A stretch of DNA of 64,000 nucleotides. Source: Vitreimonas flagellata (GTDB taxonomy: Bacteria; Pseudomonadota; Alphaproteobacteria; Caulobacterales; Aquidulcibacteraceae). The position numbers and the translations under genes were made by a program. The stretch is taken from NCBI RefSeq assembly GCF_004634425.1, contig NZ_SBJL01000001.1, positions 841,001 through 905,000 of the forward strand, given 5' to 3'. Each line of letters opens with the position of its first letter. The first letter of the stretch is position 1. Of the stretch, positions 1-13,813 are shown piece after piece. The notes below the pieces were generated by a model that saw nothing but the letters and a program-made list of their open reading frames with translations, ran no database searches and was not told the DNA's origin.

Positions 1-1801
1 CGGCGCGAACTTCGGCGCGCTCGGACACTTCCGGCACCGCCACGTCCCACCACCAGCCGCCGGCCTCCGTCGTCTTCAGCGGATCAGTGTCGATCACGAT
101 AACGCTCGTGTGATCCGCTTGCTTGGCGCGCGCGAGCGCGGCTTCGAGTGCTGCGATGCTGTGCGCCTTTTCGGCAATCGCGCCCATGCTGGCGGCGTGG
201 GCGACGAAATCGACGTCCGGCAATGTTTCGTGCGCGGCGTCGGCGAGCAGATTGTTGAAAGATTCGGAGCCCGTTGAGCGCTGCAGACGATTGATGCAGC
301 CATAGCCGCGATTGTCGAGCACGACGATGGTGAGCTTCTTGCCGAGCATCACCGACGTCGCGATCTCGGAATTCATCATCAGGTAAGAGCCATCGCCGAC
401 CATGACGACGACGTCGCGTTCGGGCGCGGCGATCTTCACGCCAAGCCCGCCGGCGATTTCGTAGCCCATGCATGAAAAGCCGTATTCGAGATGGTAGCCG
501 CCGGGTTTCGCCGTGCGCCAGAGTTTGTGCAGCTCGCCCGGCAGACCACCGGCCGCGCAAACAACGACAGCATTCTCGTCCGAGTTGCGTTGCACAGCGC
601 CGATGACCTGCGCGTCGCTGGGCAGCGCTTGCGTTTTGGGCGCGGCGGTCGCGGCATCGACCGCCTTGGTCCACCCGGCGACACGGCCCGCATTCGCATC
701 ACACCAAGCGCCCGGCACTTGCCAGCCTTCAAGCTTGTTCGCGAGCGCTTGGAGCACGCTCGCCGCATCACCGATCACCGCCTCGGCGCCGTGCTTGTGT
801 GCATCATGCGCCGCGACGTTCACTTGGATCAGTTTCGCGTCCGACCGCTCAAACAACGTTCGCGAGCCGCTGGTGAAGTCTTGGAGGCGCGTGCCGAGAC
901 CAACCACGAGATCGGCAGTCGCCGCCGCCTCATTGGCCGCGCTCGAACCGGTTACGCCGATGGAGCCGAGCGCACTTGGGTGATCCCATGCGAGCGCGCC
1001 TTTGCCCGCTTGCGTTTCGGCAACGGGAAGCCCCGTCGTCTTTGCGAGTTGCGACAGGATTTGTTCAGCGCCCGCATAGAGCACACCGCCGCCGGCAATC
1101 AGCAACGGCGCTTTCGCGGCGCGGATGGCGCTCGCGAGCGATTCGATATCATTCGCTTCGGCTTGCGGCTTGCGCGCGCGCCATACGCGGCGCTCGAAGA
1201 ATCTCGCCGGAAAGTCGAACGCCTCGGCCTGCACGTCTTGGCAGAACGCCAAAGTCGCCGGGCCGCAATTCACTGGATCGAGCAATGTCGCCATCGCGCG
1301 CGGCAGCGCGTCGAGCAATTGCTCTGGCCGCACCAGGCGATCGAAATAGCGTGAGACCGGGCGGAAGCAATCATTCGCCGAGATGGCGCCATCACCGAAA
1401 TCCTCGACCTGCTGCAACACCGGATCTGGACGGCGTGACGCGTATACATCGCCCGGCATCAGCAGCACCGGCAAACGATTGACGTGCGCGAGTGCGGCGG
1501 CCGTCACCATGTTTGTAGCGCCGGGGCCGATCGACGTGGTGCAGATCATCGCGCGGCGACGACGCAGCTGCTTGGCGTATGCGATCGCCGCGTGCGCCAT
1601 CGCTTGCTCATTGTGCGCGCGATACGTCGGCAACGCATCACGCGCATCGTAGAGGGCTTCGCCGAGGCAGGCGACGTTGCCATGACCGAAAATCGCCCAG
1701 ACGCCCGCAAAGTAGGGTACTTCACGACCGTCCGCCTCGACGAACTGGTTAGCGAGATAGCGGATCGCGGCTTGCGCCGCTGTCAGACGCAGCGTGCTCA
1801 T
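1..1801 (-). CDS. iolD: 3D-(3,5/4)-trihydroxycyclohexane-1,2-dione hydrolase IolD (3' end cut by window edge)
   Basis: This ThDP-dependent enzyme opens the ring of the inositol catabolism intermediate trihydroxycyclohexane-1,2-dione to 5-deoxy-glucuronate; it is cytoplasmic. About 600 codons are visible, and the family is usually 610-640 residues, so only the extreme C-terminus is missing. It starts MSTLRLTAAQAAIRYLANQF, continues with the GVWAIFGHGNVACLGEAL segment typical of IolD, and carries the ThDP motif GDGSYLMMNSEIAT near residue 467 (about 370-402 on the plus strand). The ATG at 1801-1799 lies only 2 nt after the iolC stop, so it is translationally coupled to iolC. iolE, iolB and an mmsA-type iolA are expected beyond the left edge. 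The assignment is firm. Confidence 0.95.
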   Translation of the reverse strand, partial: MSTLRLTAAQAAIRYLANQFVEADGREVPYFAGVWAIFGHGNVACLGEALYDARDALPTYRAHNEQAMAHAAIAYAKQLRRRRAMICTTSIGPGATNMVTAAALAHVNRLPVLLMPGDVYASRRPDPVLQQVEDFGDGAISANDCFRPVSRYFDRLVRPEQLLDALPRAMATLLDPVNCGPATLAFCQDVQAEAFDFPARFFERRVWRARKPQAEANDIESLASAIRAAKAPLLIAGGGVLYAGAEQILSQLAKTTGLPVAETQAGKGALAWDHPSALGSIGVTGSSAANEAAATADLVVGLGTRLQDFTSGSRTLFERSDAKLIQVNVAAHDAHKHGAEAVIGDAASVLQALANKLEGWQVPGAWCDANAGRVAGWTKAVDAATAAPKTQALPSDAQVIGAVQRNSDENAVVVCAAGGLPGELHKLWRTAKPGGYHLEYGFSCMGYEIAGGLGVKIAAPERDVVVMVGDGSYLMMNSEIATSVMLGKKLTIVVLDNRGYGCINRLQRSTGSESFNNLLADAAHETLPDVDFVAHAASMGAIAEKAHSIAALEAALARAKQADHTSVIVIDTDPLKTTEAGGWWWDVAVPEVSERAEVRA

Positions 1802-1803
1802 CC

Positions 1804-3726
1804 CTATCTCGTATGCGCTTTCTTCGCGGCGCGCCACGCTTCGACGAGACCCGCGAGATTGTTCGCCAGCGCGGCAATCGCGGCTTCGTCGTCGATCTCA
1901 CCTTTGAGCCAGCGTTCAGCGGCGGCGCTGAAGATGGTGCGGCCCACGGCGAAACCTTTAACGATGTTCGCGCGCGCAGCCGGGCCGAAGGATTGCACGA
2001 GCTGATCGTGCGGAATGGAGAGGCCCAACAACACGACACCGCGGCAATGCGGATCGTTCTTCAGAATCGCGCGTTCAATATTGGCCCAGCTTTCGCTGTC
2101 GGCGGCGGGTTCAAGCTTCCACCAATCGGGATACACACCGATGTCGTAGAAGCGCTGGATCGCACGCGCGGCGGTTTTGGAATCCACGGCGCCATTCTTC
2201 GAAGCGATGATCTCAACCAGAAGCTCATGCCCTGTCGCACGGCATGCATCGAAAAGACGCAGCGCTTGGCGTTCCTGGCGCTCGCGCAAATCGGCCGGAT
2301 CGTCGGGGTGATAGAGGAAGAGCACTTTGACGACGTGGTTGAGCGGCCATTGCGCCAGCTCCGACGCCACGTCGGCATGCCCCGTATCAAACTCAAGCGG
2401 ACACGATTGCGGCAACTCGATCGGGCGGCCGATCCAATATGGCAAATCGGCCGCCGCCTCGAGCGCGCGCATGCCGTGGCGCCCATCAAGCAACACGCCG
2501 AAGCGTTTGTCGCCCTTGGCGAGACGATCGGCGGCGCGCAAGGCGAGCAATTTGAATTGCGCGATGCGCGCATCACTCGCACCGAGTTTCTGCGCTAAGT
2601 CTTCGAATTGCGTGCGGTGATCCGTGGCGAGCACGGTGAGTTCATCATAAACCCCGCGACGGCAGCCGACCCAATGCAGATGCGCAAGCTGGCGATCTTC
2701 GCGCAACCGACGCGGGCGCGCCTTCATGGCGAGGAAATACTCCATCTCCTCCCATGTCGGCATCGCCGGCGCGCAGCCATGACGAGAGACGACGATCGCG
2801 CCAGACGCGTTGCCTAAAGTGCAGCAGCGCTCGACGCTTTCACCGCGCAGCCAGCCGCGCAGGAAGCCGGCCATGAACGCGTCCCCCGCACCCAAGACAT
2901 TGAACACCTCGACCGGGAAGCCAGCGACGATCAGCGTCTCTTCCACCGCACCGGGGATAGCGCCCTCAAACGCAGCGCAGCCTTCTGCGCCGAGCTTCAA
3001 GATGATCAGTGCAGCGCTTTTGCTACGGATGGCGCGCAGTGCAGCGATCGTATCTATCGTACCGCCGAGAATATGAATTTCTTCCGCTGTGCCGACGATC
3101 AAATCGCACTTCGGCAGCACTTGCTGAAGTTGCAATGTAACTTGCTCGTTCGCGACGAAGCGGTTTTCACCCATGTCGCGCGATTCAAGACCCCAAAGCA
3201 CCGGGCGATAATCGACATCGAACACGACCTTGCGGCCTGCGCCCTTCGCAATGTCGATCGCCCGCATGCTTGCAGCGAACACGTTCGGCTTTGAAAGATG
3301 CGTGCCGTTGACGAGCACGGCGGCGGCAGCGCTCACAAACGTCGGATCGATGTCGCTTTCATCGAGCGCCATGTCGGCGCAATTCTCGCGATAGAAAATC
3401 AGCGGAAACGTATCGGGATCGCGGAGGCCGAGAATGACGAGTGCAGTCAAACGCTCGGCATCGGTTTTTACGCCGCGCACATCGACGCCATCGCGCACGA
3501 GTTCTTCGCGGATGAAGCGGCCCATGTGATCGCCGCCGACGCGCGTGATGAGGCCGGTTTTCAAACCAAGGCGTGCGGCGCCAATGGCCGTGTTGGTCGG
3601 GCTGCCGCCGACATATTTGGCGAAACCGCCCATGTCTTCGAGACGCCCGCCGACCTGTTGGCCGTAGAGATCGATCGACGATCTGCCGATTGTGATCAGA
3701 TCAAGCGTGCGCTCTCTCTGCGCCAT
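1804..3726 (-). CDS. iolC: 5-dehydro-2-deoxygluconokinase IolC fused to a DUF2090 aldolase-like domain
   Basis: This 640-residue fusion protein carries a PfkB/ribokinase-fold kinase at about residues 5-320 that phosphorylates 5-dehydro-2-deoxygluconate. The kinase shows the substrate segment GGSPTNTAIGAARLGL and the catalytic anion-hole motif GAGDAF near residue 279. The C-terminal half, about 325-640, is a DUF2090 TIM-barrel domain often fused to proteobacterial IolC; a role in the following aldol cleavage is family knowledge and not proven by this sequence. I chose the ATG at 3726 (MAQRERTLDLITIGR) over one 18 nt upstream because family members begin just before the first beta strand. It is the first gene of the minus-strand iolC-iolD unit and is preceded by two operator-like sites (3775-3817). 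Confidence 0.93.
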   Translation of the reverse strand: MAQRERTLDLITIGRSSIDLYGQQVGGRLEDMGGFAKYVGGSPTNTAIGAARLGLKTGLITRVGGDHMGRFIREELVRDGVDVRGVKTDAERLTALVILGLRDPDTFPLIFYRENCADMALDESDIDPTFVSAAAAVLVNGTHLSKPNVFAASMRAIDIAKGAGRKVVFDVDYRPVLWGLESRDMGENRFVANEQVTLQLQQVLPKCDLIVGTAEEIHILGGTIDTIAALRAIRSKSAALIILKLGAEGCAAFEGAIPGAVEETLIVAGFPVEVFNVLGAGDAFMAGFLRGWLRGESVERCCTLGNASGAIVVSRHGCAPAMPTWEEMEYFLAMKARPRRLREDRQLAHLHWVGCRRGVYDELTVLATDHRTQFEDLAQKLGASDARIAQFKLLALRAADRLAKGDKRFGVLLDGRHGMRALEAAADLPYWIGRPIELPQSCPLEFDTGHADVASELAQWPLNHVVKVLFLYHPDDPADLRERQERQALRLFDACRATGHELLVEIIASKNGAVDSKTAARAIQRFYDIGVYPDWWKLEPAADSESWANIERAILKNDPHCRGVVLLGLSIPHDQLVQSFGPAARANIVKGFAVGRTIFSAAAERWLKGEIDDEAAIAALANNLAGLVEAWRAAKKAHTR

Positions 3727-3774
3727 AAACCAACGGCCCTGCACACCGCGCGGACGATCAGCGCGACCTCATTT

Positions 3775-3817
3775 GCAACACGTATTCCATTTTATATATC
3801 GGTGCAACATTCATTTC
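3775..3817. promoter_or_regulatory. Pair of putative IolR operator sites upstream of iolC
   Basis: Two 14-bp sites sit in the short gap between the regulator gene and iolC: GCAA-CACGTA-TTCC at 3775-3788 and the weaker GCAA-CATTCA-TTTC at 3804-3817. Their centres are 29 bp apart. They resemble the GGAA-N6-TTCC palindrome that I recall as the RpiR-type IolR site in rhizobia. An AT-rich stretch (ttttatatatc) lies between them and could hold the iolC -10 region. Binding by the neighbouring regulator is an inference. Confidence 0.5.
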
Positions 3818-3825
3818 ACACCGCA

Positions 3826-4713
3826 TCAGCTGGCTTTACGGCGCTTTCCAGCGGGCTTGCGCGCTTGCCCTTCCGCGCGCGCTGCGACGAACGCGTAAGA
3901 GATCACAAGCGCCTGCACGAGGCACATCGTGGCGGCGAGCGAGCGGAACTTTCTGATCTCCGCCTCCTTCACCTGCAGCGCCAATGTCGCAGGCTTTGCG
4001 GTGGGGCTCACGAGCGAGTCGCTGATCGAGAGCACTTTAGCCTCATGCGAGATCGCAAGCTGCACGGCCTGGATCGTTTCGTCCGCATAAGGGTGGAAGC
4101 TGACATCGATCAGCAGATCTTGCGCCGTAATCGATTGCATCTGTTGGCGCGTGAGGCCGCCAACACCGTCCACGAAGATGGTCTTCTTGTTAAGTTGCTG
4201 GAGCGAATACGCGAGGTAGGACGAAACCGGCAGCGAACGCCGAAAGCCTACAACATAAACGCTTTCAGCCTCGTCGATCAGTTCAACGGCAGCGCGTAAA
4301 TCGGCATCCTTCACCAGCTCACGCAGATTGTTGAGCGCGAGCACGTTGCCTTCCACGAACTCGGAGAGCACTTCGGCGGGCTTGCCGCTTTCGCGCGCGT
4401 GTGCGCCTTCGGCAAACTGGCGCACGCGTTCGCTGTAGCCGAGGACCGAGCTGCCCGCGATCAGGCCGTCGCGGATCACCTTCTGCATCTGGCTGGCGCT
4501 CTCAAAGCCAATGGCTTTGGCGAAGCGCACGATGGCCGAGGGCTGCACGCCGGCGCGTTCGCCGATCACGGCCAGCGTTTCGAGCGCCACCGCGTTCGGC
4601 TCGTCCAAAACATAGCGGGCGATCTGTTGGAGGCGTTTGCTCAAATCCTCGTAGCTATCGAGGATGGCGGCACGGAGCTCCTCGCTGGATTGCGGCGGGC
4701 CTTTGCTGGACAT
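3826..4713 (-). CDS. iolR: RpiR-family transcriptional regulator, probable inositol regulator IolR
   Basis: This is a 295-residue cytoplasmic DNA-binding protein. The N-terminal RpiR helix-turn-helix is at about residues 10-85 (recognition part ERAGVQPSAIVRFAKAIGF). A sugar-isomerase (SIS) ligand domain follows at about 130-265 (VYVVGFRRSLPVSSYLAYSL ... ADETIQAVQLAISHEAKVLS), and the tail is basic. The ATG at 4713 is chosen because GGAG lies 7 nt upstream and family members begin about 10 residues before the first helix; a longer in-frame start at 4827 would run through the promoter. It lies between iolC and the divergent iolG pair, the usual place for a repressor of inositol catabolism that responds to a pathway phosphate ester. 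The ligand is not visible from sequence. Confidence 0.85.
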   Translation of the reverse strand: MSSKGPPQSSEELRAAILDSYEDLSKRLQQIARYVLDEPNAVALETLAVIGERAGVQPSAIVRFAKAIGFESASQMQKVIRDGLIAGSSVLGYSERVRQFAEGAHARESGKPAEVLSEFVEGNVLALNNLRELVKDADLRAAVELIDEAESVYVVGFRRSLPVSSYLAYSLQQLNKKTIFVDGVGGLTRQQMQSITAQDLLIDVSFHPYADETIQAVQLAISHEAKVLSISDSLVSPTAKPATLALQVKEAEIRKFRSLAATMCLVQALVISYAFVAARAEGQARKPAGKRRKAS

Positions 4714-4739
4714 GGACGCTCCGGGCGGCGGAAAGTCGC

Positions 4740-4841
4740 AGAATATATTTTCCGCACCTGGAACGCAATGAACACGCTTTCCAGGGCTTGCCAATTTCAG
4801 AATTTTCGTTCCATAAGCGAGGTCCATGCAATAGGCGTTTC
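4740..4841. promoter_or_regulatory. Four evenly spaced operator-like sites in the iolR-iolG divergent promoter
   Basis: Four 14-bp sites occupy this gap: AGAA-TATATT-TTCC (4740-4753), TGAA-CACGCT-TTCC (4769-4782), AGAA-TTTTCG-TTCC (4799-4812) and a weaker GCAA-TAGGCG-TTTC (4828-4841). Centre-to-centre distances are 29, 30 and 29 bp, close to three helical turns, so all sites face the same side of the DNA. A possible sigma-70-like promoter for iolG (TTGCCA at 4788, CATAAG at 4812, 18-bp spacer) would have the third site in its spacer. The sites are read directly; binding by the RpiR protein and the promoter are inferences. Confidence 0.6.
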
Positions 4842-4898
4842 GCGCGGGGGCCGCTTTGGGCGTTGACGCGTAGAGCGCCCGCTTCCAAGCGAGGCTTT

Positions 4899-5888
4899 AT
4901 GGCGGAAAAGATCGACGTCGCAGTCATCGGCGCAGGCCGGATGGGGCAGATTCACGGGCTGAACGCGGCGCGGCATCCGGATTTGCGGCTGCGCTATGTG
5001 ATCGATAGCGATGCGGCCGCCGCTGGCTCACTGGCTGCGACGTTTGGCGCGGAAGTCGGCACGCTTGAGCAAGCGCTAGCCGAGCCGGCGATCAAAGGCT
5101 TCGTCATCGCCAGCTCGACGGACATGCATCTAGAGCACAGCCTGGCCGTAATCGGCGCTGGCAAGGCGGCCCTGTGCGAAAAGCCTATCGATCTCGATCT
5201 CGCCAAGGCTAAGGCCGCTGCGCCGAAATTCGAGGGCGCGCAATATATTCTGGGCTTCAACCGCCGCTTCGACCCGCATGTCAGCGCGCTGCGCGAGAAG
5301 ATCCAATCTGGCGCCATCGGCCAATTGGAAACCCTGACTTTGATCAATCACGATCCAGCGGCGCCGCCGCCGGCCTTCATTCCGCGCTCGGGCGGCCTCT
5401 TCAAGGATTTCACCATACACGATTTGGACTTGGCCTACGCCCTGCTGGGTGAGCCGCCAGTTGAGATTTTTGCGACCGCCTCTTGCTTGGTCGATCCAGC
5501 AATCGCCGCAGCGGGCGATGTGGACACGGCGCGCGTCATCCTGCGGGCGGCGAGCGGCAAGCTTTGCGTGATCTCCAACACGCGCCGCAGCGGCTATGGC
5601 TATGACCAGCGCGTCGAGGCCTATGGCTCGCGCGGCATGGCGGCGACGGCGAACGAACGCCTGGACGCGGTTGAGGTCTGGAATGAAGCTGGCGCGCACG
5701 CCTCGCCCATCCGGCCCAATTTCTTGAATCGCTACGCCGCCTCTTATGCCGGCGAAATGAGCCATTTTGCCGATGTGCTGAAGGGCCGTGCGAAACCATC
5801 CGTCGGCTATGCCGAGGGCCTAATGGCGCTGGCCTGGGCCGAAGCGTGCGCGGAATCGGCGCGCACCAATTCCGTGATCAAGCTCTGA
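4899..5888 (+). CDS. iolG: Inositol 2-dehydrogenase-like Gfo/Idh/MocA oxidoreductase, copy 1
   Basis: This 329-residue NAD(P)-dependent enzyme would oxidise myo-inositol or a stereoisomer to the 2-keto form, the first step of the pathway. It has an N-terminal Rossmann fold with VIGAGRMGQIH at residues 8-18, the catalytic EKP motif (CEKPIDLD) near residue 94, and the D-x3-H motif in FKDFTIHDLDLAYALLG. The start is the ATG at 4899 with a GCGAGG Shine-Dalgarno-like sequence; the reading frame stays open upstream but lacks family sequence there. It is followed after 7 nt by a second, very similar gene, so the two form an operon. Stereoisomer preference cannot be read from sequence. Confidence 0.88.
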   Translation: MAEKIDVAVIGAGRMGQIHGLNAARHPDLRLRYVIDSDAAAAGSLAATFGAEVGTLEQALAEPAIKGFVIASSTDMHLEHSLAVIGAGKAALCEKPIDLDLAKAKAAAPKFEGAQYILGFNRRFDPHVSALREKIQSGAIGQLETLTLINHDPAAPPPAFIPRSGGLFKDFTIHDLDLAYALLGEPPVEIFATASCLVDPAIAAAGDVDTARVILRAASGKLCVISNTRRSGYGYDQRVEAYGSRGMAATANERLDAVEVWNEAGAHASPIRPNFLNRYAASYAGEMSHFADVLKGRAKPSVGYAEGLMALAWAEACAESARTNSVIKL

Positions 5889-5895
5889 GGATCCC

Positions 5896-6882
5896 ATGCA
5901 AAAGATTGCTCTTATTGGCGCGGGCCGCATCGGCCGCATCCACGCCTCCAACGTCGCCGCGCATCCCGAACTGCAACTCGCTTACGTGATCGATCCGATC
6001 GCCGATGCGGCGAAGAGCGTGGCGGAGAGCTTCGGCGCGCGCACGGCCGATCTCGACGGCGCGCTGGGCGACCCCTCGGTGACGGGCGTGATCGTCGCCT
6101 CCTCTACCGACACGCACTTGGCGTTCAGCCTGAAGGCGGCGGAAGCGAGCAAGGCGATTTTCTGCGAGAAACCGATCGATCTTGATCTCGAACGCGCGGA
6201 AGGCGCGGCGTGCAAATTCGAAGTCCTGCGCGCGAAACTCTTGTTGGCGTTCAACCGTCGCTTCGATCCGAATTTCGCGACGTTGAAGCGCAAACTTGAC
6301 GCCGGCGATGTGGGCAAGCTGGAGACGCTGCACATCACCAGCCACGATCCATCGCCGCCACCGGCGGGCTACATTCCGGTCAGCGGCGGCTTGTTCAAGG
6401 ACATGGCGATCCACGATTTCGACATGGCGCGTTGGATGCTCGGTGAAGAACCAAGCGAAGTGTTCGCGGCTGGCGCTTGCCTGGTCGATCCCGAGATCGG
6501 CCGCCTGGGCGACATCGATACGGCGAAGACGATCCTACGTACGCCGTCCGGCAAGCTCTGCGTCATCTCCAACAGCCGCCGCAGCGGCTACGGCTACGAC
6601 CAACGCATCGAAGCGTTCGGCTCCGGCGGCGCGCTCCGTGCGGGCAACGTGGTCGAGAGCACCGTGGAAGCCTGGACCGAGAGCGGCGCGCAGGCCGATC
6701 AATTCCAGAATTTTTTCCTCGATCGCTATGCACACGCATATCGCCTAGAGATCGCGCACTTCGCCGACATGCTGGTGCGCGGCGCTGCGCCCAAGATTGG
6801 CTATGCCGATGGCGTGGCGGCGCTGGCGTTGGCAACCGCGGCGCAAGCGTCGGCCAGTAATGGCGCACCGGTCGCGCTCTGA
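5896..6882 (+). CDS. iolG: Inositol 2-dehydrogenase-like Gfo/Idh/MocA oxidoreductase, copy 2
   Basis: This 328-residue tandem paralogue of the preceding gene is alignable end to end by eye, with identity clearly above half. It has the same nucleotide-binding motif (LIGAGRIGRIH), EKP motif (FCEKPIDLDL), catalytic segment FKDMAIHDFDMARWMLG and NSRRSGYGYDQR block. It is expected to oxidise an inositol isomer; two dehydrogenases of different stereochemical preference (for example myo/scyllo or D-chiro) are common in inositol loci, but this is family knowledge. It starts 7 nt after copy 1 stops and ends 23 nt before a hairpin terminator, so the pair is a complete two-gene transcript. Confidence 0.87.
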   Translation: MQKIALIGAGRIGRIHASNVAAHPELQLAYVIDPIADAAKSVAESFGARTADLDGALGDPSVTGVIVASSTDTHLAFSLKAAEASKAIFCEKPIDLDLERAEGAACKFEVLRAKLLLAFNRRFDPNFATLKRKLDAGDVGKLETLHITSHDPSPPPAGYIPVSGGLFKDMAIHDFDMARWMLGEEPSEVFAAGACLVDPEIGRLGDIDTAKTILRTPSGKLCVISNSRRSGYGYDQRIEAFGSGGALRAGNVVESTVEAWTESGAQADQFQNFFLDRYAHAYRLEIAHFADMLVRGAAPKIGYADGVAALALATAAQASASNGAPVAL

Positions 6883-6905
6883 ACGATCGCTTCAGAAATG
6901 TAAGA

Positions 6906-6939
6906 GGGCGGCGATCGCGAGGTCGCCGTCTCTTTCTTT
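6906..6939 (+). terminator. Terminator after the second iolG
   Basis: A nine-pair stem (two G-T pairs) joins 6906-6914 to 6923-6931 around an 8-nt loop and is followed by TTTCTTT at 6933-6939. It sits 23 nt after the iolG copy 2 stop codon on the same strand. Confidence 0.6.
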
Positions 6940-6951
6940 GCGCACAGCCAC

Positions 6952-6977
6952 AAAAAAGCGGCCCCTTTCGGGGCCGC
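6952..6977 (-). terminator. Rho-independent terminator of the TonB receptor gene
   Basis: A perfect 8-bp GC stem (6958-6965 with 6970-6977, loop TTTC on the plus strand) is followed, reading the minus strand, by a run of six T (plus-strand A at 6952-6957). It lies 23 nt beyond the receptor stop codon. Confidence 0.85.
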
Positions 6978-7000
6978 CAGCTTGAGGATTTGGAGGATTT

Positions 7001-9400
7001 TTAGAACACCGCGCGGAACGTCACCATGACGGTCGGCGATGAGTTTTCGCGTTCGATCTCGAACTCATCGACGTCATTAGCGAGCATCGCGTCACGCAAT
7101 TCTTCGGCGCTGTCGCCATCGAAATTGCGCTCGGACTGGATGCTGTCCGCGTCGAGCAGATTGTTACCGACCAGACGCACGACCATGTTTTCGGTCAAGC
7201 GATGCTCAAGGAACACTTCGAGGTTTGCATCGTACCATTGATCCTCGATCTCGCCGAGGAACAGCGAACGCGACATGCCCTGCTTGCGATAGGAGAAGCC
7301 GAAGCTCGTGTTCCACGCATCCATGTTGTGCGACAGACCCCAATTGTAAACGTACTCGGGCTGCGCATTGAAGGTCGTGGTGATGCCAGTAAACGGATCG
7401 GTGCGCTCGGATTCAAGGCTCGTGTAGTTCGCAAAGAAGCCCGTATCCGGCAGCCCGATGAAGCCGAGCGGCGTCGAAACGTCGACCTCGTAGCCCCAGA
7501 CTTCACCATCGCCGATATTGTCGTAGGTGTAGAGACCTCCGTCGCAAGCGCAGACGTCTGGCGTGCGCACCAAGCTGATCAAATCGCTGACTTGGCGGTG
7601 GAAATAGTTCACGCCGATGATGCCGCGCTGACCGATGCGGTGCTCGTAACCGATATCGATGCCCCACGCGGTTTCCAGACCGAGGTCCGGATTGCCGACG
7701 GTGATATCGTCATCGCCCGGGCTCTCTTCATCTTCGAACGGCACAACCTGATCGAGCGACGGACGACGCGCGGTGCGTGCGACCGAAGCACGGATCTGGC
7801 CGTTGGTCCAAACATCCCATTGCACGTGCGCTGACGGATAGAATTCCGCGACCTCGTTCGAAATCGCAGCGCCGCCCGGCAGCGAGGCTTCGGTTTCTGT
7901 CGTTTCCACCCGCGCGCCAGCTTGGAACGTGAGCGTTTCGGAGAGACCGAGTTCAACTTGCGTGTAAGCGTCGAGGCGGCGCTCTTCGAACTCGAAATTG
8001 CCGCTGGCGTTGGGATTGGTTTCCTCTTCACCCGGATCGGAGAAATCGAGATCGTTGTCGTCTTCGAACACGCGTAGGCTGTAGTCGCGCGTTTTCACCT
8101 TGCCGGCGACGCCGAACTCCCATTCGAAGCTGGCCAGACCGATAAGTTGCGCGAACGCGTCCGAATTGAACGTCAGAGCGCCATCGAGCGACAATTCTTG
8201 GTCGTCGCTATCGATCAGCTCGCGCTCGCCTTCGGTTGGGTCGCCGTCGTAGACCGGCGTCGTGAAGGTATCTTGGGTGTTGTTTTCCAAGAATTGCGCG
8301 AAGCGGAATTGACTCTCGAACGACCATGACGACGTCAGCGCGCCCTCATAGAGCGCGGAAATGCCATAGCTATCCTGCTCGATTTCTTGCGCCTGGGTTT
8401 CCGTCTCATTCAGCTCCCACGGATCGTCGGAGACGTCGTCGTTGTCGTTGCCGCCGCCCGGATCGTCGCCGGAATCATCGTTGCGGAAATAGTTTTGCGT
8501 ATCTTCCGTCTCATCGCGACGCGTGCTCAGATAGAACGCATCCAAGCGCACGCGATGACCTTGCGCCATCTCGACGGTGAGATCGCCATTGAAGGACAAG
8601 TCCACGCTTTCGCGCGTATCGACTTGGTCCTGGTGCTCGATCGCATTGGTCGACGGCGTCGAGGCGTCAAAATCATCCGGTTGGAACATGCTTAAGCCGT
8701 TCGACAGCGGATTAAAGCCCGGCGACGTGTCGTCAAACAGCTGCTGATCCAGCACCTTCGTGTTGTAGCGCTGTTGTGCGTCGAACGTGGCCGACCAGGC
8801 GAAGCGACGATTATCCGTCCGACCGGACATGGAGATCGCGCCGAGGCCGCCAAGCTCTTCGTTGTCGACGTCATAAACGCCGCCGACGCGCGCGATCACA
8901 CCCGGCGGAAGGCTCGCGCCGTCCTTCAGGATGATATTGATCGTCCCGCCGATGCCGCCGGAATCGATGTTGGCGCTTGGCGCGCGCACGATTTCGATGC
9001 GATCGATGATTTCGGCCGGAATGCGGTCCACGAACACGGTGCGGTCGTTGCCGGCGCCTGGAATTGGACGGCCGTTGACGAGAACCTGCGTGAAGCCTTC
9101 GCCCAAACCGCGCATTTGCGGCGCATCGCGCTCACCGATGTCGCTCGTGAACGCAACGCCAGGAACACGTGAGAGCTGGTCGCCGACCGAGAGCGGCTCG
9201 AACTGCTCAAAGAATTGCTGGTCGTACACAAGCTCCGGCGCGACCGTGTCCGTACGGTTGCGATATTGGATTTCGCCCGTGATGACAATGTCTTCGAGAT
9301 CTTCTTCCGGCTGTTGATCCTGCGCCAGGGCAACGCCCGGCATCGTCAGGCAGCACGACAAGAGCAGCGTCCGCAGCGCCGCCTTTCGCGTGAACTTCAT
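7001..9400 (-). CDS. TonB-dependent outer-membrane receptor, candidate phytate/inositol-phosphate receptor
   Basis: This 799-residue outer-membrane protein begins with a cleavable signal peptide (MKFTRKAALRTLLLSCCLTM ... ALAQ). A TonB-box-like DIVITGE follows. The plug domain, about residues 40-160, includes VLVNGRPIPGAGND, RIEIVRAPSANIDSGGIGG and INIILKDG. A 22-strand-type barrel ends in a phenylalanine (TFRAVF). The start at 9400 has a strong GGAGGA Shine-Dalgarno. The barrel holds unusually acidic, Asp-rich loops, most strikingly at residues about 305-330 (8411-8488), and a CAC motif (7540-7552). It diverges from a phytase gene across 217 bp containing two IolR-like sites. Receptor class is certain; the substrate, phytate or its calcium complex, is inferred from context. 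Confidence 0.85.
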   Translation of the reverse strand: MKFTRKAALRTLLLSCCLTMPGVALAQDQQPEEDLEDIVITGEIQYRNRTDTVAPELVYDQQFFEQFEPLSVGDQLSRVPGVAFTSDIGERDAPQMRGLGEGFTQVLVNGRPIPGAGNDRTVFVDRIPAEIIDRIEIVRAPSANIDSGGIGGTINIILKDGASLPPGVIARVGGVYDVDNEELGGLGAISMSGRTDNRRFAWSATFDAQQRYNTKVLDQQLFDDTSPGFNPLSNGLSMFQPDDFDASTPSTNAIEHQDQVDTRESVDLSFNGDLTVEMAQGHRVRLDAFYLSTRRDETEDTQNYFRNDDSGDDPGGGNDNDDVSDDPWELNETETQAQEIEQDSYGISALYEGALTSSWSFESQFRFAQFLENNTQDTFTTPVYDGDPTEGERELIDSDDQELSLDGALTFNSDAFAQLIGLASFEWEFGVAGKVKTRDYSLRVFEDDNDLDFSDPGEEETNPNASGNFEFEERRLDAYTQVELGLSETLTFQAGARVETTETEASLPGGAAISNEVAEFYPSAHVQWDVWTNGQIRASVARTARRPSLDQVVPFEDEESPGDDDITVGNPDLGLETAWGIDIGYEHRIGQRGIIGVNYFHRQVSDLISLVRTPDVCACDGGLYTYDNIGDGEVWGYEVDVSTPLGFIGLPDTGFFANYTSLESERTDPFTGITTTFNAQPEYVYNWGLSHNMDAWNTSFGFSYRKQGMSRSLFLGEIEDQWYDANLEVFLEHRLTENMVVRLVGNNLLDADSIQSERNFDGDSAEELRDAMLANDVDEFEIERENSSPTVMVTFRAVF

Positions 9401-9485
9401 CCGATATTCCTCCCCTCGAGGTCCCCTCGCTCGGGCAAGGCGTACGGGCCTGGCCACGGCAAGATGTCATGACCCGGGGATGTTA

Positions 9486-9529
9486 CGAACGAAAATTCCA
9501 TTTGGCAACCATTTTGGAATTTTTCTTGC
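9486..9529. promoter_or_regulatory. Two operator-like sites in the receptor-phytase divergent promoter
   Basis: CGAA-CGAAAA-TTCC (9486-9499) and GGAA-TTTTTC-TTGC (9516-9529; read in reverse, GCAA-GAAAAA-TTCC) have centres 30 bp apart, the same spacing as in the iolG promoter. Together they build a larger dyad: AAAATTCCA at 9492-9500 is the exact reverse complement of TGGAATTTT at 9515-9523. The position between two divergent genes suggests shared control of both. The sites are seen; regulator identity is inferred from the iol promoters. Confidence 0.55.
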
Positions 9530-9617
9530 GAACCGGGTTTGCAGATGGCAGCTTAGGTGTGCGGAAACTGTCACAAACCGCCTGTAGGCACGCGGGCGCG
9601 CAACGGGAATCATAACA

Positions 9618-11669
9618 ATGCAAAAGACTTGGCTCGCTGGATTGTTCGCAACCGCAGCGCTCGCAGGCTGCGCGAGCGGCGGCGCGACGACCACGCCCTC
9701 TCTCACCGCGATCGCCGAAACCGCGCCGACAGAACAATCCGACGCAAACACCGCGCTCATCGTGCCACGCGCGAATGGCGGCGGCTTGATCATCGGCTCA
9801 AGCGAAACCACCGGCATCGAGCTCTATGGCCTCGACGGCGCGCGCGTGGGCGCGATCGCTGCGGGCGCCGCTGTCGGTGTTGACGCGCGCTATGGCGCGC
9901 CAGCTGTGAATGCCTGGGTTGTCGCCACACTTGATGGCTCGACCAACCAATTGCGCTTGTTCGAGCTGAACGCCGAAACTGGCGTTGGCCGCGAACGCAC
10001 GGCGCGTGCACTGCCCGTGGGCTTCTCTGGCGAGAGCCTCTGTCTCTATCGCGATGCGCGCGACCAAACGCTCTATGCGTTTGCGCTCGGCGGCGCGGGC
10101 CAAGTCGCGCAATACATGATTGGCGAACGCAATGGCGGCTTTGACGCCACGCTCGTGCGTGAGCTGCGCCTCGCCTCGGAAGCCTCCTATTGCACCGCCG
10201 ACGACGCCACGGGCGACCTCTATGTCGCCGAACAAGGCGTAGGCTTTTGGCGGTTTGACCCTGACCCCGAAGCGGAAGTTGTGCCGCAATTGATCGACGC
10301 CGTGCGCCTCGGCCACATCACCGAAGAAGCTGGCGGTCTCGCAGTCTATAATGCGGGCGCCGCGAGCTATCTCGTCGGTTCCGACGCCTCAGCCAATCAA
10401 TTCCACGTCTATGATCGCAACAACGATCACACCTATGTCGGCAGCTTTACGCTCGCCGCTGGCGCCACCATCGACGGCGTCGAAGCTGCGGGTGGTCTCA
10501 ACGCATCAAGCTTCGCGTTTTCGCCAAGCTTTACGCAAGGCGCGCTCGTCGCCACGGATGACGAAAACGACGGCGGCACGAATTACAAATTGATCTCGTG
10601 GGCCAACATCGCCGGCGCGCTCAATCTCAGCGCTGGCACGGCGCAAGATCCGCGCACGCCGCCGCAATCCTCGATGGCGATTGTACATCCGATCACGGAA
10701 ACCGCGCCGGTCGAAACCGACGGCGACAGCGCTGACGATCCCGCCATCTGGGTCGATCGCAACGATCCGTCGCGCAGCATCATCATCGGCACGCAAAAGC
10801 AATCGGGCCTCTACGTGTACGATCTCCAAGGCCGTGTGCTGCAATTCCTGCCAGACGGGCGCATGAACAATGTCGACGTGCGCGACAATTTCCGCCTCGG
10901 CAATCAGACGGTTTCACTCGTGACGTCAAGCAATCGCACGACAGACGGCATTTCCATCTATCGCGTTGATCCAAATACGCGCCGCTTGATCGATGTCGCC
11001 GATGGCGTGCAGCCGACGGGCTTCACCGATCCGTACGGCCTTTGCATGTACACCAGCGCCCGCACCAACGACACGTACGTGTTCGTCAACGGCGATGTCG
11101 GCACAATGCGCCAATATCGCCTGACCGATGCCGGCAATGGTCGCGTGCGCGCAACGCAGGTCCGTGAAATCCCATTCGCCAGCCAAACCGAGGGCTGCGT
11201 CGCCGACGACGAAGCTGGCGTGCTTTACATTGGCGAAGAGGATGTCGGCCTCTGGCGCATCAGCGCCGAGCCCGATGGCGGCGCGGTCCCGACTTCGTTC
11301 GCCACCGTCGAAGCCAACGATGCGCTGAAAGACGATCTTGAAGGTATTGGCCTTTATGATCTCGGCGGCGGCCGCGGCTACCTGATTGTGTCAAGCCAGG
11401 GCAACAACACGTACGCCGTGTTCAACCGTCAAGGTAACAACGAATATGTCGGCACCTTCGCTGTGCTGGCCGACGCCGCGCGCGGCATCGACGGCATTTC
11501 TGAAACCGATGGCTTGGAAGTGTTGAGCGACAATCTCGGCGGGCCGTACGCCGGCGGTATCTTCATCGCCCAAGACGGCCGCAACATCGCGCCACAGCAG
11601 TACCAGAATTTCAAGCTGGTCCCGTGGTCCGCGATTGCCGAAGCGCTCGATCTGGAGACGCGGCAGTAA
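9618..11669 (+). CDS. Two-domain beta-propeller phytase lipoprotein
   Basis: This is a 683-residue beta-propeller (3-phytase type) phytase that releases phosphate from phytate with calcium. The N-terminus is a lipoprotein signal ending in the lipobox LAGC, with Cys near residue 18, so it is membrane-anchored facing the periplasm or surface. The C-terminal domain, from about residue 352, is the catalytic type: DGDSADDPAIW at residue 368, the IIIGTQKQSGLYVYDL block, DPYGLCMY and DDLEGIGLYDLG. The N-terminal half, about 25-335, repeats the same fold with matching blocks (TTGIELYGLDG, ESLCLYRD, YKLISWANIAGALNLS) but has lost the acidic metal-site motif. Dual-domain phytases with an incomplete first domain are known. 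It is divergent from the TonB receptor and ends 3 nt before the convergent second receptor. Confidence 0.9.
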   Translation: MQKTWLAGLFATAALAGCASGGATTTPSLTAIAETAPTEQSDANTALIVPRANGGGLIIGSSETTGIELYGLDGARVGAIAAGAAVGVDARYGAPAVNAWVVATLDGSTNQLRLFELNAETGVGRERTARALPVGFSGESLCLYRDARDQTLYAFALGGAGQVAQYMIGERNGGFDATLVRELRLASEASYCTADDATGDLYVAEQGVGFWRFDPDPEAEVVPQLIDAVRLGHITEEAGGLAVYNAGAASYLVGSDASANQFHVYDRNNDHTYVGSFTLAAGATIDGVEAAGGLNASSFAFSPSFTQGALVATDDENDGGTNYKLISWANIAGALNLSAGTAQDPRTPPQSSMAIVHPITETAPVETDGDSADDPAIWVDRNDPSRSIIIGTQKQSGLYVYDLQGRVLQFLPDGRMNNVDVRDNFRLGNQTVSLVTSSNRTTDGISIYRVDPNTRRLIDVADGVQPTGFTDPYGLCMYTSARTNDTYVFVNGDVGTMRQYRLTDAGNGRVRATQVREIPFASQTEGCVADDEAGVLYIGEEDVGLWRISAEPDGGAVPTSFATVEANDALKDDLEGIGLYDLGGGRGYLIVSSQGNNTYAVFNRQGNNEYVGTFAVLADAARGIDGISETDGLEVLSDNLGGPYAGGIFIAQDGRNIAPQQYQNFKLVPWSAIAEALDLETRQ

Positions 11670-11672
11670 GAG

Positions 11673-13739
11673 CTAGAATTGCCCGCTCGCGGAGAGGCCG
11701 AACATGGGGCCCTCTCCGCGGGCGCGGTAATCCAAACCATCGAAGAGTCCGAGCCGGTCCGCATCATAATGGCGGCGATCACGCGTTTCTGCGTCGTCAG
11801 TGAGATTCGAGCCCCACGCGCGCAGCTTCAACCCAGCGAAAGCGGTCGTCTCGATCCATAAGGTCAAATCTTCCGCGTCGCGTTCAAGTTCAATTTGATC
11901 GAGCTGATACGATGGCGTCTCCGTCTCGCGCTCGTAGTCGAGCCCCCAAGCGAAAATTGAGAAGTCCTGGCGAAGGCCCATCGTCAGCGCGCTTTCGTCG
12001 ATCTCCGAAAGCTCACGCTTGACGCCTGTGAGCGGATCGGTCGCTTGCGAGCGCTGCTCCATGAAATCAATGCGCAGCGACGCGCCCCATGTGAGCGGGA
12101 TCGAGGTGGAGACGCGAAACCCGTTCATTTCCGCATCGCCAATATTGCCCGGCGCGTCGAGCTGATCGCCCGGCGGGCCAACCGGCACGACGTCGAGCGC
12201 ATCTTCGATCGCCCAATGATAGAGCGTGACGCTCAGCGCCCCATCCTCGCCAAAGCGCCAATCGCCCGCCGCTTCCGCACGCCAGGACGTTTCCGGACGC
12301 AGCCCCGGATTGCCAGCGATAACGACAGACGACGTAATATCCGCCGCCGAGACAAAATCCTCGAAATCCAGCTGACCCACATCGCGAAAAAGGCGGAAGC
12401 GCACTTGGTCGCGCTCGCCCAGGCTGCGCGTGAGCTGCAACGACGGTTTCCAATATTCGAGCACCGTTTCGCGATCGGAATCGCCACTCTGCGTGAGATT
12501 TGAGAACTCAACTGACGCGCCCGCCTCCAGCGACCATCGCGGCGACAGCTGTCCAGCAAGCATCGCGCCGAACTCCGCGCGCACTTCCTCCACGCGCACA
12601 TTGGCGGACGGCAGCACCACTGGTGCAGGCCCTGCGCCGTCGTCTTCAACCAGCGCCAAGCGCTGCTCCAACGTGTTGAGCGCGCCTTCAGCGCTCAGCT
12701 CAACGCTCCAATCGCGCGGCAGATCGCGGCGCAACGCGGCGCGGGCAATAGTTTCGCCACTCTCCAGGCTCTGGCTTTGCCACGCCGCCTCTTCGAGGAC
12801 GCCGCCCGCATCGCGTTCGACCGTCGCCTCATCGCCCTCGTACCAGCGCCGCGTCGCGACGCCGCCAAACTCCGCGCGCCAGGGCCCAAACTCGCGCCGC
12901 AGCGCGACGCTGAGCTCGGCAATATCTTCGCGTTCAGCCAAATCTCCCTCGACAGCGCCGTCGCTCACGCTGAACGCATCAAACATCTGCGTTGCTTCCC
13001 GCTCGTCACTTTCACTCCGGCTGATCTGCGCATTGAGCGCCGTATGCCAACCAAACAGCGGAAACGACGCCTCACCCGCGAGCACGCCTTCGCGTCCGTC
13101 CAGCGGAATACGCTCAACGCGGCGCTCGTCCAGCTCGCCCGATTCATCACGATCGACGCGCAAACCGCGCACGGGCGCATGCGCGACATCGAGATCAAGC
13201 GAAAGCCCGTATTCAAGCGCGCCACGGCGCCCCGACCATGCGGCCCCAACGCTCGGCGACACGCGCCCCTCCTCGGCGCGCTCCGCGGAGAGCGACCAAA
13301 TGCCTTCGCCTTCGCCTTCGCCGCCGCGCCGCACCACGTTGACATGCATGCTCTGCGCACTGCCCGCACTCGCGCCACCGCCACGGATCAGCTCGATCCG
13401 CTCCACGTCACGTGCCGGAATGCGCGCCAGGATGTCGTCAATCTCTTGCGCCTTCGATGTCGGCGGCTCGCCATTGATCAACACGTTGCTCTGCGCGCCT
13501 GCAAAACCCCGCCGCTCCGCGCCCTCATCCAGCACAAATCCCGGCACCCGCTCGATCATGTCGAGCGCGGTACGCGGAGAGAATTGCGCGAAGAACGCGG
13601 CATCGTAAACGACAGCGCCGACGGCGTCGGCCGCCGCACTCTGCTCCTGTGCAAAAGCAGCGCTCGACGCGAAGATCGCCGTCGAAGCCGCGAGAGCGCA
13701 CCGCAATGAAGCGTGCGCGTGAAACTTGCCCTTGTGCAT
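11673..13739 (-). CDS. TonB-dependent outer-membrane receptor, second copy of the locus
   Basis: This 688-residue outer-membrane receptor has a signal peptide ending around AAFAQEQ. The plug domain contains VLINGEPPTSKAQEIDDIL, RIELIRGGGASAGSAQSM and VNVVRRGG, and the barrel ends with SASGQF, a terminal phenylalanine. The plug opening YDAAFFAQFSPRTALDMIER matches YDQQFFEQFEPLSVGDQLSR of the first receptor, so the two are paralogues. The ATG at 13739 is preferred because the basic signal-peptide n-region begins there; an ATG 24 nt upstream is possible. Its stop lies 3 nt from the phytase stop. A related substrate such as a partly dephosphorylated inositol phosphate is plausible but unproven; only a partial operator-like half (GGAA-N6-TT at 13753) is seen upstream. 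Confidence 0.82.
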   Translation of the reverse strand: MHKGKFHAHASLRCALAASTAIFASSAAFAQEQSAAADAVGAVVYDAAFFAQFSPRTALDMIERVPGFVLDEGAERRGFAGAQSNVLINGEPPTSKAQEIDDILARIPARDVERIELIRGGGASAGSAQSMHVNVVRRGGEGEGEGIWSLSAERAEEGRVSPSVGAAWSGRRGALEYGLSLDLDVAHAPVRGLRVDRDESGELDERRVERIPLDGREGVLAGEASFPLFGWHTALNAQISRSESDEREATQMFDAFSVSDGAVEGDLAEREDIAELSVALRREFGPWRAEFGGVATRRWYEGDEATVERDAGGVLEEAAWQSQSLESGETIARAALRRDLPRDWSVELSAEGALNTLEQRLALVEDDGAGPAPVVLPSANVRVEEVRAEFGAMLAGQLSPRWSLEAGASVEFSNLTQSGDSDRETVLEYWKPSLQLTRSLGERDQVRFRLFRDVGQLDFEDFVSAADITSSVVIAGNPGLRPETSWRAEAAGDWRFGEDGALSVTLYHWAIEDALDVVPVGPPGDQLDAPGNIGDAEMNGFRVSTSIPLTWGASLRIDFMEQRSQATDPLTGVKRELSEIDESALTMGLRQDFSIFAWGLDYERETETPSYQLDQIELERDAEDLTLWIETTAFAGLKLRAWGSNLTDDAETRDRRHYDADRLGLFDGLDYRARGEGPMFGLSASGQF

Positions 13740-13813
13740 CAACCCATCCCTGGGAATGCACATTAAGTCTGGGCTGCTGACGCGCCGCTGACGGTGAAAT
13801 CCGCTCGTTTAGT

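Follow-up and report, generated by a model that had tools for sequence, protein, structure and literature searches.

Does a phytase encoded among genes for inositol breakdown answer to the regulator of those genes? Phytate makes up a major part of the organic phosphorus in soils, and the usual view of phytases is that they scavenge phosphate. The question is raised by a tandem beta-propeller phytase gene in a 64-kb stretch of the Vitreimonas flagellata genome (G000, 3.9 Mb; contig C1, positions 841001 to 905000), hereafter the window, whose numbering is used below unless another locus is named. A reading of the sequence alone (the sequence-only reading) had proposed that one regulator couples capture and dephosphorylation of phytate to inositol catabolism. 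Our comparison of the window with related genomes indicates that the region is very probably a phytate-to-inositol catabolic island under an RpiR-type repressor, IolR, acting at three promoters. The proposed coupling is supported by sequence for the TonB-dependent receptor TBDR1 and the phytase, whose operators recur in orthologous promoters of two bacterial classes, and does not extend to a second receptor, TBDR2.

The IolR operator of Caulobacter crescentus is GGAA-N6-TTCC (PMC2597717). Eight 16-mer sites with one or two mismatches to this core are present in the window, at 3774 and 3803 before iolC, at 4739, 4768, 4798 and 4827 between iolR and the first dehydrogenase gene, and at 9485 and 9515 between TBDR1 and the phytase, with spacings of 29 bp, of 29, 30 and 29 bp, and of 30 bp, respectively. 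The 64-kb window contains no perfect copy of GGAA-N6-TTCC, and a scan of the whole genome for the perfect core as a target list returned 56 places against 28 for a reversed control; as this pattern was too weak, a matrix and paired sites were used instead. The training set, taken from the iolR/dehydrogenase and iolR/iolC regions of 30 loci, consisted of 76 sites (51 unique) contributed by 27 of these loci, and gave a 16-bp matrix; it included those two regions of the window but not its phytase region. When two sites 28–31 bp apart were required, with a pair score of at least 15 and at least 5 for each site, pairs were found in just three intergenic regions of the window. These are a putative operator pair before iolC (3774..3818; sites 29 bp apart, score 32.1), four putative sites forming three overlapping pairs (starting at 4739, 4768 and 4798) in the iolR/dehydrogenase gap (4739..4842; scores 26.5–29.1), and a putative double operator common to TBDR1 and the phytase (9485..9530). 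When the matrix was trained without the window, 1000 dinucleotide shuffles of its phytase promoter all stayed below the observed pair score. The eight phased sites pointed out by the sequence-only reading are more than chance by the matrix scan and, for the phytase promoter, by shuffling. Chance AT-rich palindromes in promoters are hardly a credible explanation: single sites of like strength do occur elsewhere in the window (45538 and 55311), but pairs do not, and both the sequence and the 30-bp spacing are conserved across classes. A putative motif of the C. crescentus type is present before iolC and the inositol dehydrogenase; the same motif pair before the phytase and TBDR1 is a candidate extension beyond the published regulon definition.

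A wide scan recovered 29 IolR loci in named genomes, 28 with at least 50% identity, from Brevundimonas, Phenylobacterium and Asticcacaulis (Caulobacterales) and from Pseudoxanthomonas, Luteimonas, Rhodanobacter, Arenimonas and others (Xanthomonadales). The compared set comprised 30 loci including the window and its relative G032, after L092 (a 28% match that is not an IolR relative) was dropped. Phytase and receptor are in view at 18 of these (L064, L068, L070, L072, L081, L083–L087, L089 and L091 were left out), all with the same gene order, in which a divergent phytase and receptor are followed by dehydrogenases divergent from iolR-iolC-iolD. With the locus in question left out of the matrix, 18 of 18 iol-linked phytase/receptor promoters have a pair at exactly 30 bp, although, the loci being related to one another, this count represents fewer than 18 independent events. 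Their scores range from 19.6 to 30.6, and 0 of 1000 shuffles reach the score in any of them. As controls, 28 phytases were taken from family genomes that lack an IolR ortholog (from 31 genomes with a phytase match, less the IolR-bearing G000 and G032 and a fragment in G046), and the best pair score upstream of them is 15.2. The pair at 30 bp is also found in five divergent promoters that played no part in training (G108, G222, two in G245, G287; 0 of 500 shuffles each), which were reached via profile matches. No divergent phytase/receptor pair without the operator was found in the iolR neighbourhoods of 14 of the 15 IolR-bearing genomes of the order; the fifteenth, G085, has no phytase and its neighbourhood was left out. 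Presence of the operator in orthologous phytase promoters was the check named beforehand by the sequence-only reading, and it is borne out in Caulobacterales and Xanthomonadales wherever phytase and receptor are divergent beside the iol genes. The 29–30 bp phase it described is constant in the phytase/receptor region and usual in the iolC region (a pair at 28–31 bp in 29 of 30 loci), and is not kept in the iolR/dehydrogenase region, where such a pair occurs in only 7 of 29 loci and a spacing of about 24 bp is found in many relatives. Upstream of iolR in L130 and L132, the 28–31 bp pair has p values of only 0.018 and 0.024. In L144 the operator is directly before the likely start at 13331.

The operator also co-occurs with IolR. 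A 57-position profile of the phytase/receptor operator (R1) matches its own genome once (E 2.5e-14). Against 249 genomes of the order it gives nine matches, seven of them at E<1e-5, all within the 15 genomes bearing IolR (hypergeometric 6e-10; 7e-5 when the four genomes from which the profile was built are left out). The two weak matches, G019 and G022 (E ~0.007), lack an IolR ortholog and were taken as chance. Against 398 genomes of the phylum there are four matches, all in genomes with an IolR of at least 59% identity; of the five such genomes, only G085 lacks a match (hypergeometric 7e-5; 0.008 without G000 and G097). Both samples are draws from larger groups.

The operator overlaps both predicted promoters. 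That of TBDR1 (9480..9508, minus strand) has a −35 element TTGCCA (9508–9503), a 17-bp spacer holding an IolR-like site and a −10 element TAACAT (9485–9480). The TTG of the −35, the 17-bp spacer and the TA...T of the −10 are invariant in 18 of 18 alignment rows, the majority form of the spacer site is GGAATNTTTGTTCG, and L123 has TTGACA-N17-TAACGT in the same place. The phytase promoter (9526..9554, plus strand), predicted by eye, is weaker, with a −35 element TTGCGA (9526–9531) overlapping the second site and a weak −10 element CAGCTT (9549–9554); across the alignment the −35 facing the phytase is TTGCAA-like and, again by eye, overlapped by that site. The site at 9485–9500 would thus occupy the −35/−10 spacer of TBDR1 and that at 9515–9530 would cover part of the phytase −35. 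Since the sites overlap both promoters, a bound repressor would occlude TBDR1 and phytase alike, and repression by occlusion is likely, in line with the derepression of iol promoters in a C. crescentus iolR deletion (PMC2597717). The better TBDR1 promoter and its better conserved spacer site might instead mean that the pair chiefly controls TBDR1, as a receptor for inositol or its phosphates, with the phytase passively carried on the other side. This alternative fits the position of the operator in L070 (3586–6014) and G493, ahead of a TonB receptor that has no phytase gene next to it; the double operator of L070 is of the phytase type, and no phytase is in view there. It also fits the Asticcacaulis iol clusters L083 and L086, which have no linked phytase and where site pairs (L083:20040 and L086:20324) lie close to the beginning of another, large TonB receptor (1036 residues by Pfam in L083; in L086 a frame of 1023 residues at the same position). 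Against it, all 18 of the 18 promoters have the phytase-side site, which overlaps the likely phytase −35, and we consider control chiefly of the receptor unlikely.

The genes under the three operator regions would form a pathway from phytate to the products of the Iol enzymes, and the gene content listed by the sequence-only reading (iolD, iolC-DUF2090, an RpiR regulator, two dehydrogenases, a phytase and two receptors) is confirmed by Pfam and NCBIfam. On the minus strand lie an iolD-like thiamine pyrophosphate-dependent enzyme (2..1801; Pfam TPP_enzyme N, M and C, with its 3' end past the window edge; 61–82% identity among compared loci), iolC (5-dehydro-2-deoxygluconokinase) fused to a DUF2090 aldolase (1804..3744; NF047869, 759 bits against a cut-off of 600) and iolR (3826..4716). 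IolR combines HTH_6 and SIS domains beside iol genes, as in the C. crescentus type of regulator, and is 65% identical to its counterpart in the C. crescentus-like G152, 84% to that of G032, 60–67% to those of the Brevundimonas, Phenylobacterium and Xanthomonadales loci and 50–54% to those of Asticcacaulis. Two IolG-type dehydrogenase genes on the plus strand follow, an inositol dehydrogenase-like protein (4899..5888; Gfo/Idh/MocA; TIGR04380, 342 bits, just below the cut-off of 355) and an inositol 2-dehydrogenase, iolG (5896..6882; 414 bits, above it). TBDR1 (7001..9400, minus strand), identified by Pfam and NCBIfam matches, is divergent from the phytase (9618..11669, plus strand), which is in turn convergent with TBDR2 (11673..13763, minus strand).

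The phytase is a beta-propeller phytase by family (PF02333, 452 bits against a cut-off of 21), and its activity is predicted on that basis. PF02333 matches it in two stretches, a weaker N-terminal domain (132 bits) and a canonical C-terminal domain (330 bits) in which residues 356–677 align to 1poo (E 2.5e-79). By eye, the second domain has GDSADDPAIW and the first lacks DDPA, which we take to be a motif of beta-propeller phytases; an N-terminal lipobox, LAGC, is also visible. The protein resembles 1poo and the related Bacillus enzymes in its C-terminal domain and differs from them in its tandem form, its weaker first domain and its lipoprotein-type start.

Beyond the window the iolC operon continues, close-packed on the same strand, with iolE, iolB, a transporter of the GlpT/UhpC family, an inositol-monophosphatase-family gene (PF00459) and a PhoD-like phosphatase gene, the last three closing the operon (L001:14640-18216 = G000:C1:835640-839216, iolC strand). 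By homology (GlpT structure 1pw4, E 5.7e-56) the transporter is assigned to the GlpT/UhpT organophosphate family. Equivalents of GlpT R45, H165 and R269, presumably the Arg/His/Arg of the phosphate site, are kept in 25 of 25 loci (including two repeats of genomes already counted). It differs from GlpT, UhpC, UhpT and PgtP in scoring below the curated NCBIfam cut-offs for all four, with a best of 270 bits against 564 for UhpC. The PF00459 protein belongs to the inositol monophosphatase family (190 bits, cut-off 27), shows the DP(L/I)DGT motif as DPLDGT in 22 of 22 loci and reaches none of the specific NCBIfam equivalog cut-offs; the PhoD-like protein starts with a twin-arginine-like RRSLLKR (by eye). 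These three genes occur with a linked phytase in both classes. In a table counted by hand from loci with both sides in view, 19 of 21 loci with a linked phytase have the transporter, as do 2 of 14 loci without one (Fisher 8e-6). The table omits L064, L066, L068, L070, L075, L081 and L126, where one side is cut off by the end of the contig or of the sequence retrieved, and does not count L123, L124 and L125 apart from the genomes already included; in L083–L087, L091, L118, L121 and L127–L132 the view past iolB is about 4 kb, and a farther transporter would escape it. An IolR-like pair lies about 100 bp before the transporter in L064, L067, L073, L081 and L090. By their families the three additional genes would suit inositol phosphates, and their content and linkage to the phytase favour uptake of an inositol phosphate followed by its dephosphorylation in the cytoplasm. 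At L065 (6532–7866), a histidine-phosphatase superfamily gene (PF00328) is found just downstream of TBDR1, between it and the dehydrogenases, and is possibly a further inositol-phosphate phosphatase of the island.

We propose the following course of events as a working model. IolR would bind the GGAA-N6-TTCC-like pairs at the iolC operon, at iolR and the dehydrogenases, and at the divergent TBDR1/phytase promoter, until released by a metabolite of the inositol pathway, which is probably phosphorylated because the regulator has an SIS domain. The phytase lipoprotein would then remove phosphates from phytate, and TBDR1 would carry the lower inositol phosphates over the outer membrane. The remaining dephosphorylation and uptake would fall to the products of the genes further down the iolC operon (PhoD-like phosphatase, GlpT-like transporter and inositol-monophosphatase-family enzyme), and the ring would be catabolised by the Iol enzymes.

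Several observations weigh against this model. TBDR2 has no site pair upstream by the matrix scan; of the two receptors the sequence-only reading had placed under the operator, only TBDR1 is so placed, and membership of TBDR2 in the regulon via a promoter of its own was rejected. The phytase-promoter sites are imperfect, with outer halves CGAA/TTGC, and at 7 of the 18 loci the receptor is merely 23–28% identical to TBDR1. The searches of more than 40 genomes used strict filters by which weak matches may be lost. G152 has one tandem phytase, beside a dehydrogenase gene, and an iolC promoter holding both motifs mutated and tested in C. crescentus, and yet the 431 bp scanned between the genes at its phytase contain no IolR pair, so that the coupling is not universal. 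In G493 the operator precedes a receptor and the phytase gene, about 5.8 kb away, has no pair of its own; nine phytases not divergently linked in IolR-bearing genomes (L126, L146–L153) likewise have none (best score 4.1), L153 as scanned at its likely start.

Possible signs of phosphate control also bear on the model. Scored against CTGTCA-N5-CTGTCA, which we assumed as the Pho-box consensus and did not derive from these genomes, the degenerate element GTGTGCGGAAACTGTCAC (9557..9574, plus strand; 9 of 12 positions, p 0.09) sits 44–61 nt before the phytase start and differs by one base in G052, which has no IolR. Pho-like elements face the receptor in G032 (10 of 12, p 0.01) and in G493 (11 of 12 with three half-sites, p 0.003). 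A phytase is also reported in the PhoB regulon of C. crescentus (PMC11208175), and we infer that it is the iol-adjacent gene seen in G152. Together these observations would suit a dual control in which IolR gates TBDR1 and phytase by carbon status and PhoB acts there too, a possibility to which we give tentative weight, somewhat short of an even chance. Set against it, a Pho box at p≤0.05 occurs in just 2 of 24 iol-linked promoters (1.2 expected), the element in the window falls outside that threshold, and the consensus is an assumed one. The other phytase promoters reach the threshold in 5 of 28 cases; a contrast between IolR-controlled and other phytases, attractive in one genus, is not significant overall (Fisher 0.43) and was set aside. 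That the phytase would follow inositol status instead of phosphate status is at most a conjecture, given the retention of GTGTGCGGAAACTGTCAC, the elements in G032 and G493, and the pairless phytase of G152. In G493 (L142:8130-8258), three repeats resembling Pho half-sites (CTGACAC-N4-CTGTCAA-N4-ATGTCAG) lie near the IolR-type double operator that precedes a TonB receptor, possibly gating it by carbon and phosphate together.

Plain phosphate scavenging under PhoB, with the position beside the iol genes coincidental, would go further. All five phytase/receptor pairs of the same genus that stand alone and have a single-domain phytase (L056, L057, L058, L060, L061) share a Pho-like TGTGATG-N4-TGTCA element, three of them at p≤0.05, and the PhoB-regulon phytase of C. 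crescentus points the same way, but coincidence would leave unexplained the IolR-type double operators in every iol-linked promoter, their confinement at E<1e-5 to IolR-bearing genomes and the conservation of the island in two classes. We regard it as very unlikely, and control by IolR remains the preferred reading.

The distribution of the island suggests both loss and transfer. In the family, an IolR ortholog is present in 2 of 60 genomes, G000 and G032, the remaining matches being 21–43% identical. G032 has the entire block with its three operator regions preserved in drifted flanking sequence, including the pair before iolC and three of the four iolR/dehydrogenase sites within one mismatch. 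G052 has a 94% identical phytase and a TBDR2 and, in the stretch fetched, no iol genes, TBDR1 or sites; in G043 the phytase is 80% identical, and neither these neighbours nor the sites accompany it. Since both group with the window in the midpoint-rooted phytase tree, with G032 outside, the simplest reading is that they lost the iol genes and the operator, the sites perhaps in one deletion. Decay of the sites after loss of IolR was rejected as proof, as homology upstream of the G052 phytase stops before the operator, which indicates a single breakpoint and counts among the points against the model. Xanthomonadales IolR is nested within alphaproteobacterial IolR (support of 0.99, 0.67 and 0.96 at the nested nodes); the node that unites the Xanthomonadales, together with L064, is unsupported. 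In the phytase tree Xanthomonadales lie next to Brevundimonas (0.96). This placement, in trees rooted at the midpoint with no outgroup, suggests that the island has moved between classes. The IolR of L064, from a metagenome-assembled genome labelled Phenylobacterium sp. SCN 69-14, groups with Rhodanobacter L066/L090 (support 0.98), perhaps through a misbinned contig, and the fragmented assembly G245 contains two phytase/TBDR1/TBDR2 copies with operators (C384 and C451; L121 and L123). In its fullest form, the proposal is of a self-contained, horizontally moving island for phytate as a carbon source, in which phytase, TonB uptake of inositol phosphates, phosphate-exchange import of inositol monophosphate (not inositol) into the cytoplasm, inositol monophosphatase and the Iol pathway would all be released from IolR by a single signal from the inositol pathway. 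We put this at nearly even chances.

IolR and its motif are already known from C. crescentus (PMC2597717), whose regulon resembles the island in its RpiR-type repressor, its GGAA-N6-TTCC sites and its control of the iolC operon and inositol dehydrogenase. The two sites of the C. crescentus iolC promoter are 59 bp apart, or twice 29.5 bp (Boutte et al. 2008; PMC2597717), compared with 29–30 bp in the island. That regulon comprises catabolic genes and an ABC transporter, and the main text of the paper names phytase once, in the title of a reference; the island differs in carrying operators also at a phytase and a TonB receptor and in an operon extended by a GlpT-like transporter and two phosphatase-type genes. 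The PhoB regulon of C. crescentus likewise names a phytase together with TonB receptors and differs in that phosphate starvation is its input (PMC11208175), the iol-adjacent phytase of G152 being without the IolR pair. A phosphate-insensitive phosphatase (PMC8812569) is, by its title, comparable in untying organophosphate use from phosphate starvation, and is a different enzyme, for which we saw no inositol link. No description of IolR control of a phytase was found in the literature searched, which did not extend to subscription papers and regulon databases, where an earlier notice is possible.

If the phytase is under IolR, these bacteria would release phosphate from phytate according to their carbon status, possibly even with phosphate in plenty, and the reading of phytase genes in soil and water metagenomes would change. 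For one subfamily of TonB receptors and one of GlpT-like transporters, the island also points to inositol phosphates as a candidate substrate path. Should the self-contained form of the island prove true, its phytase would be a carbon-catabolic enzyme, with phosphate a by-product for the cell and its neighbours. Already under the shared control proposed here, plant phytate may be a source of carbon to these bacteria as well as of phosphate.

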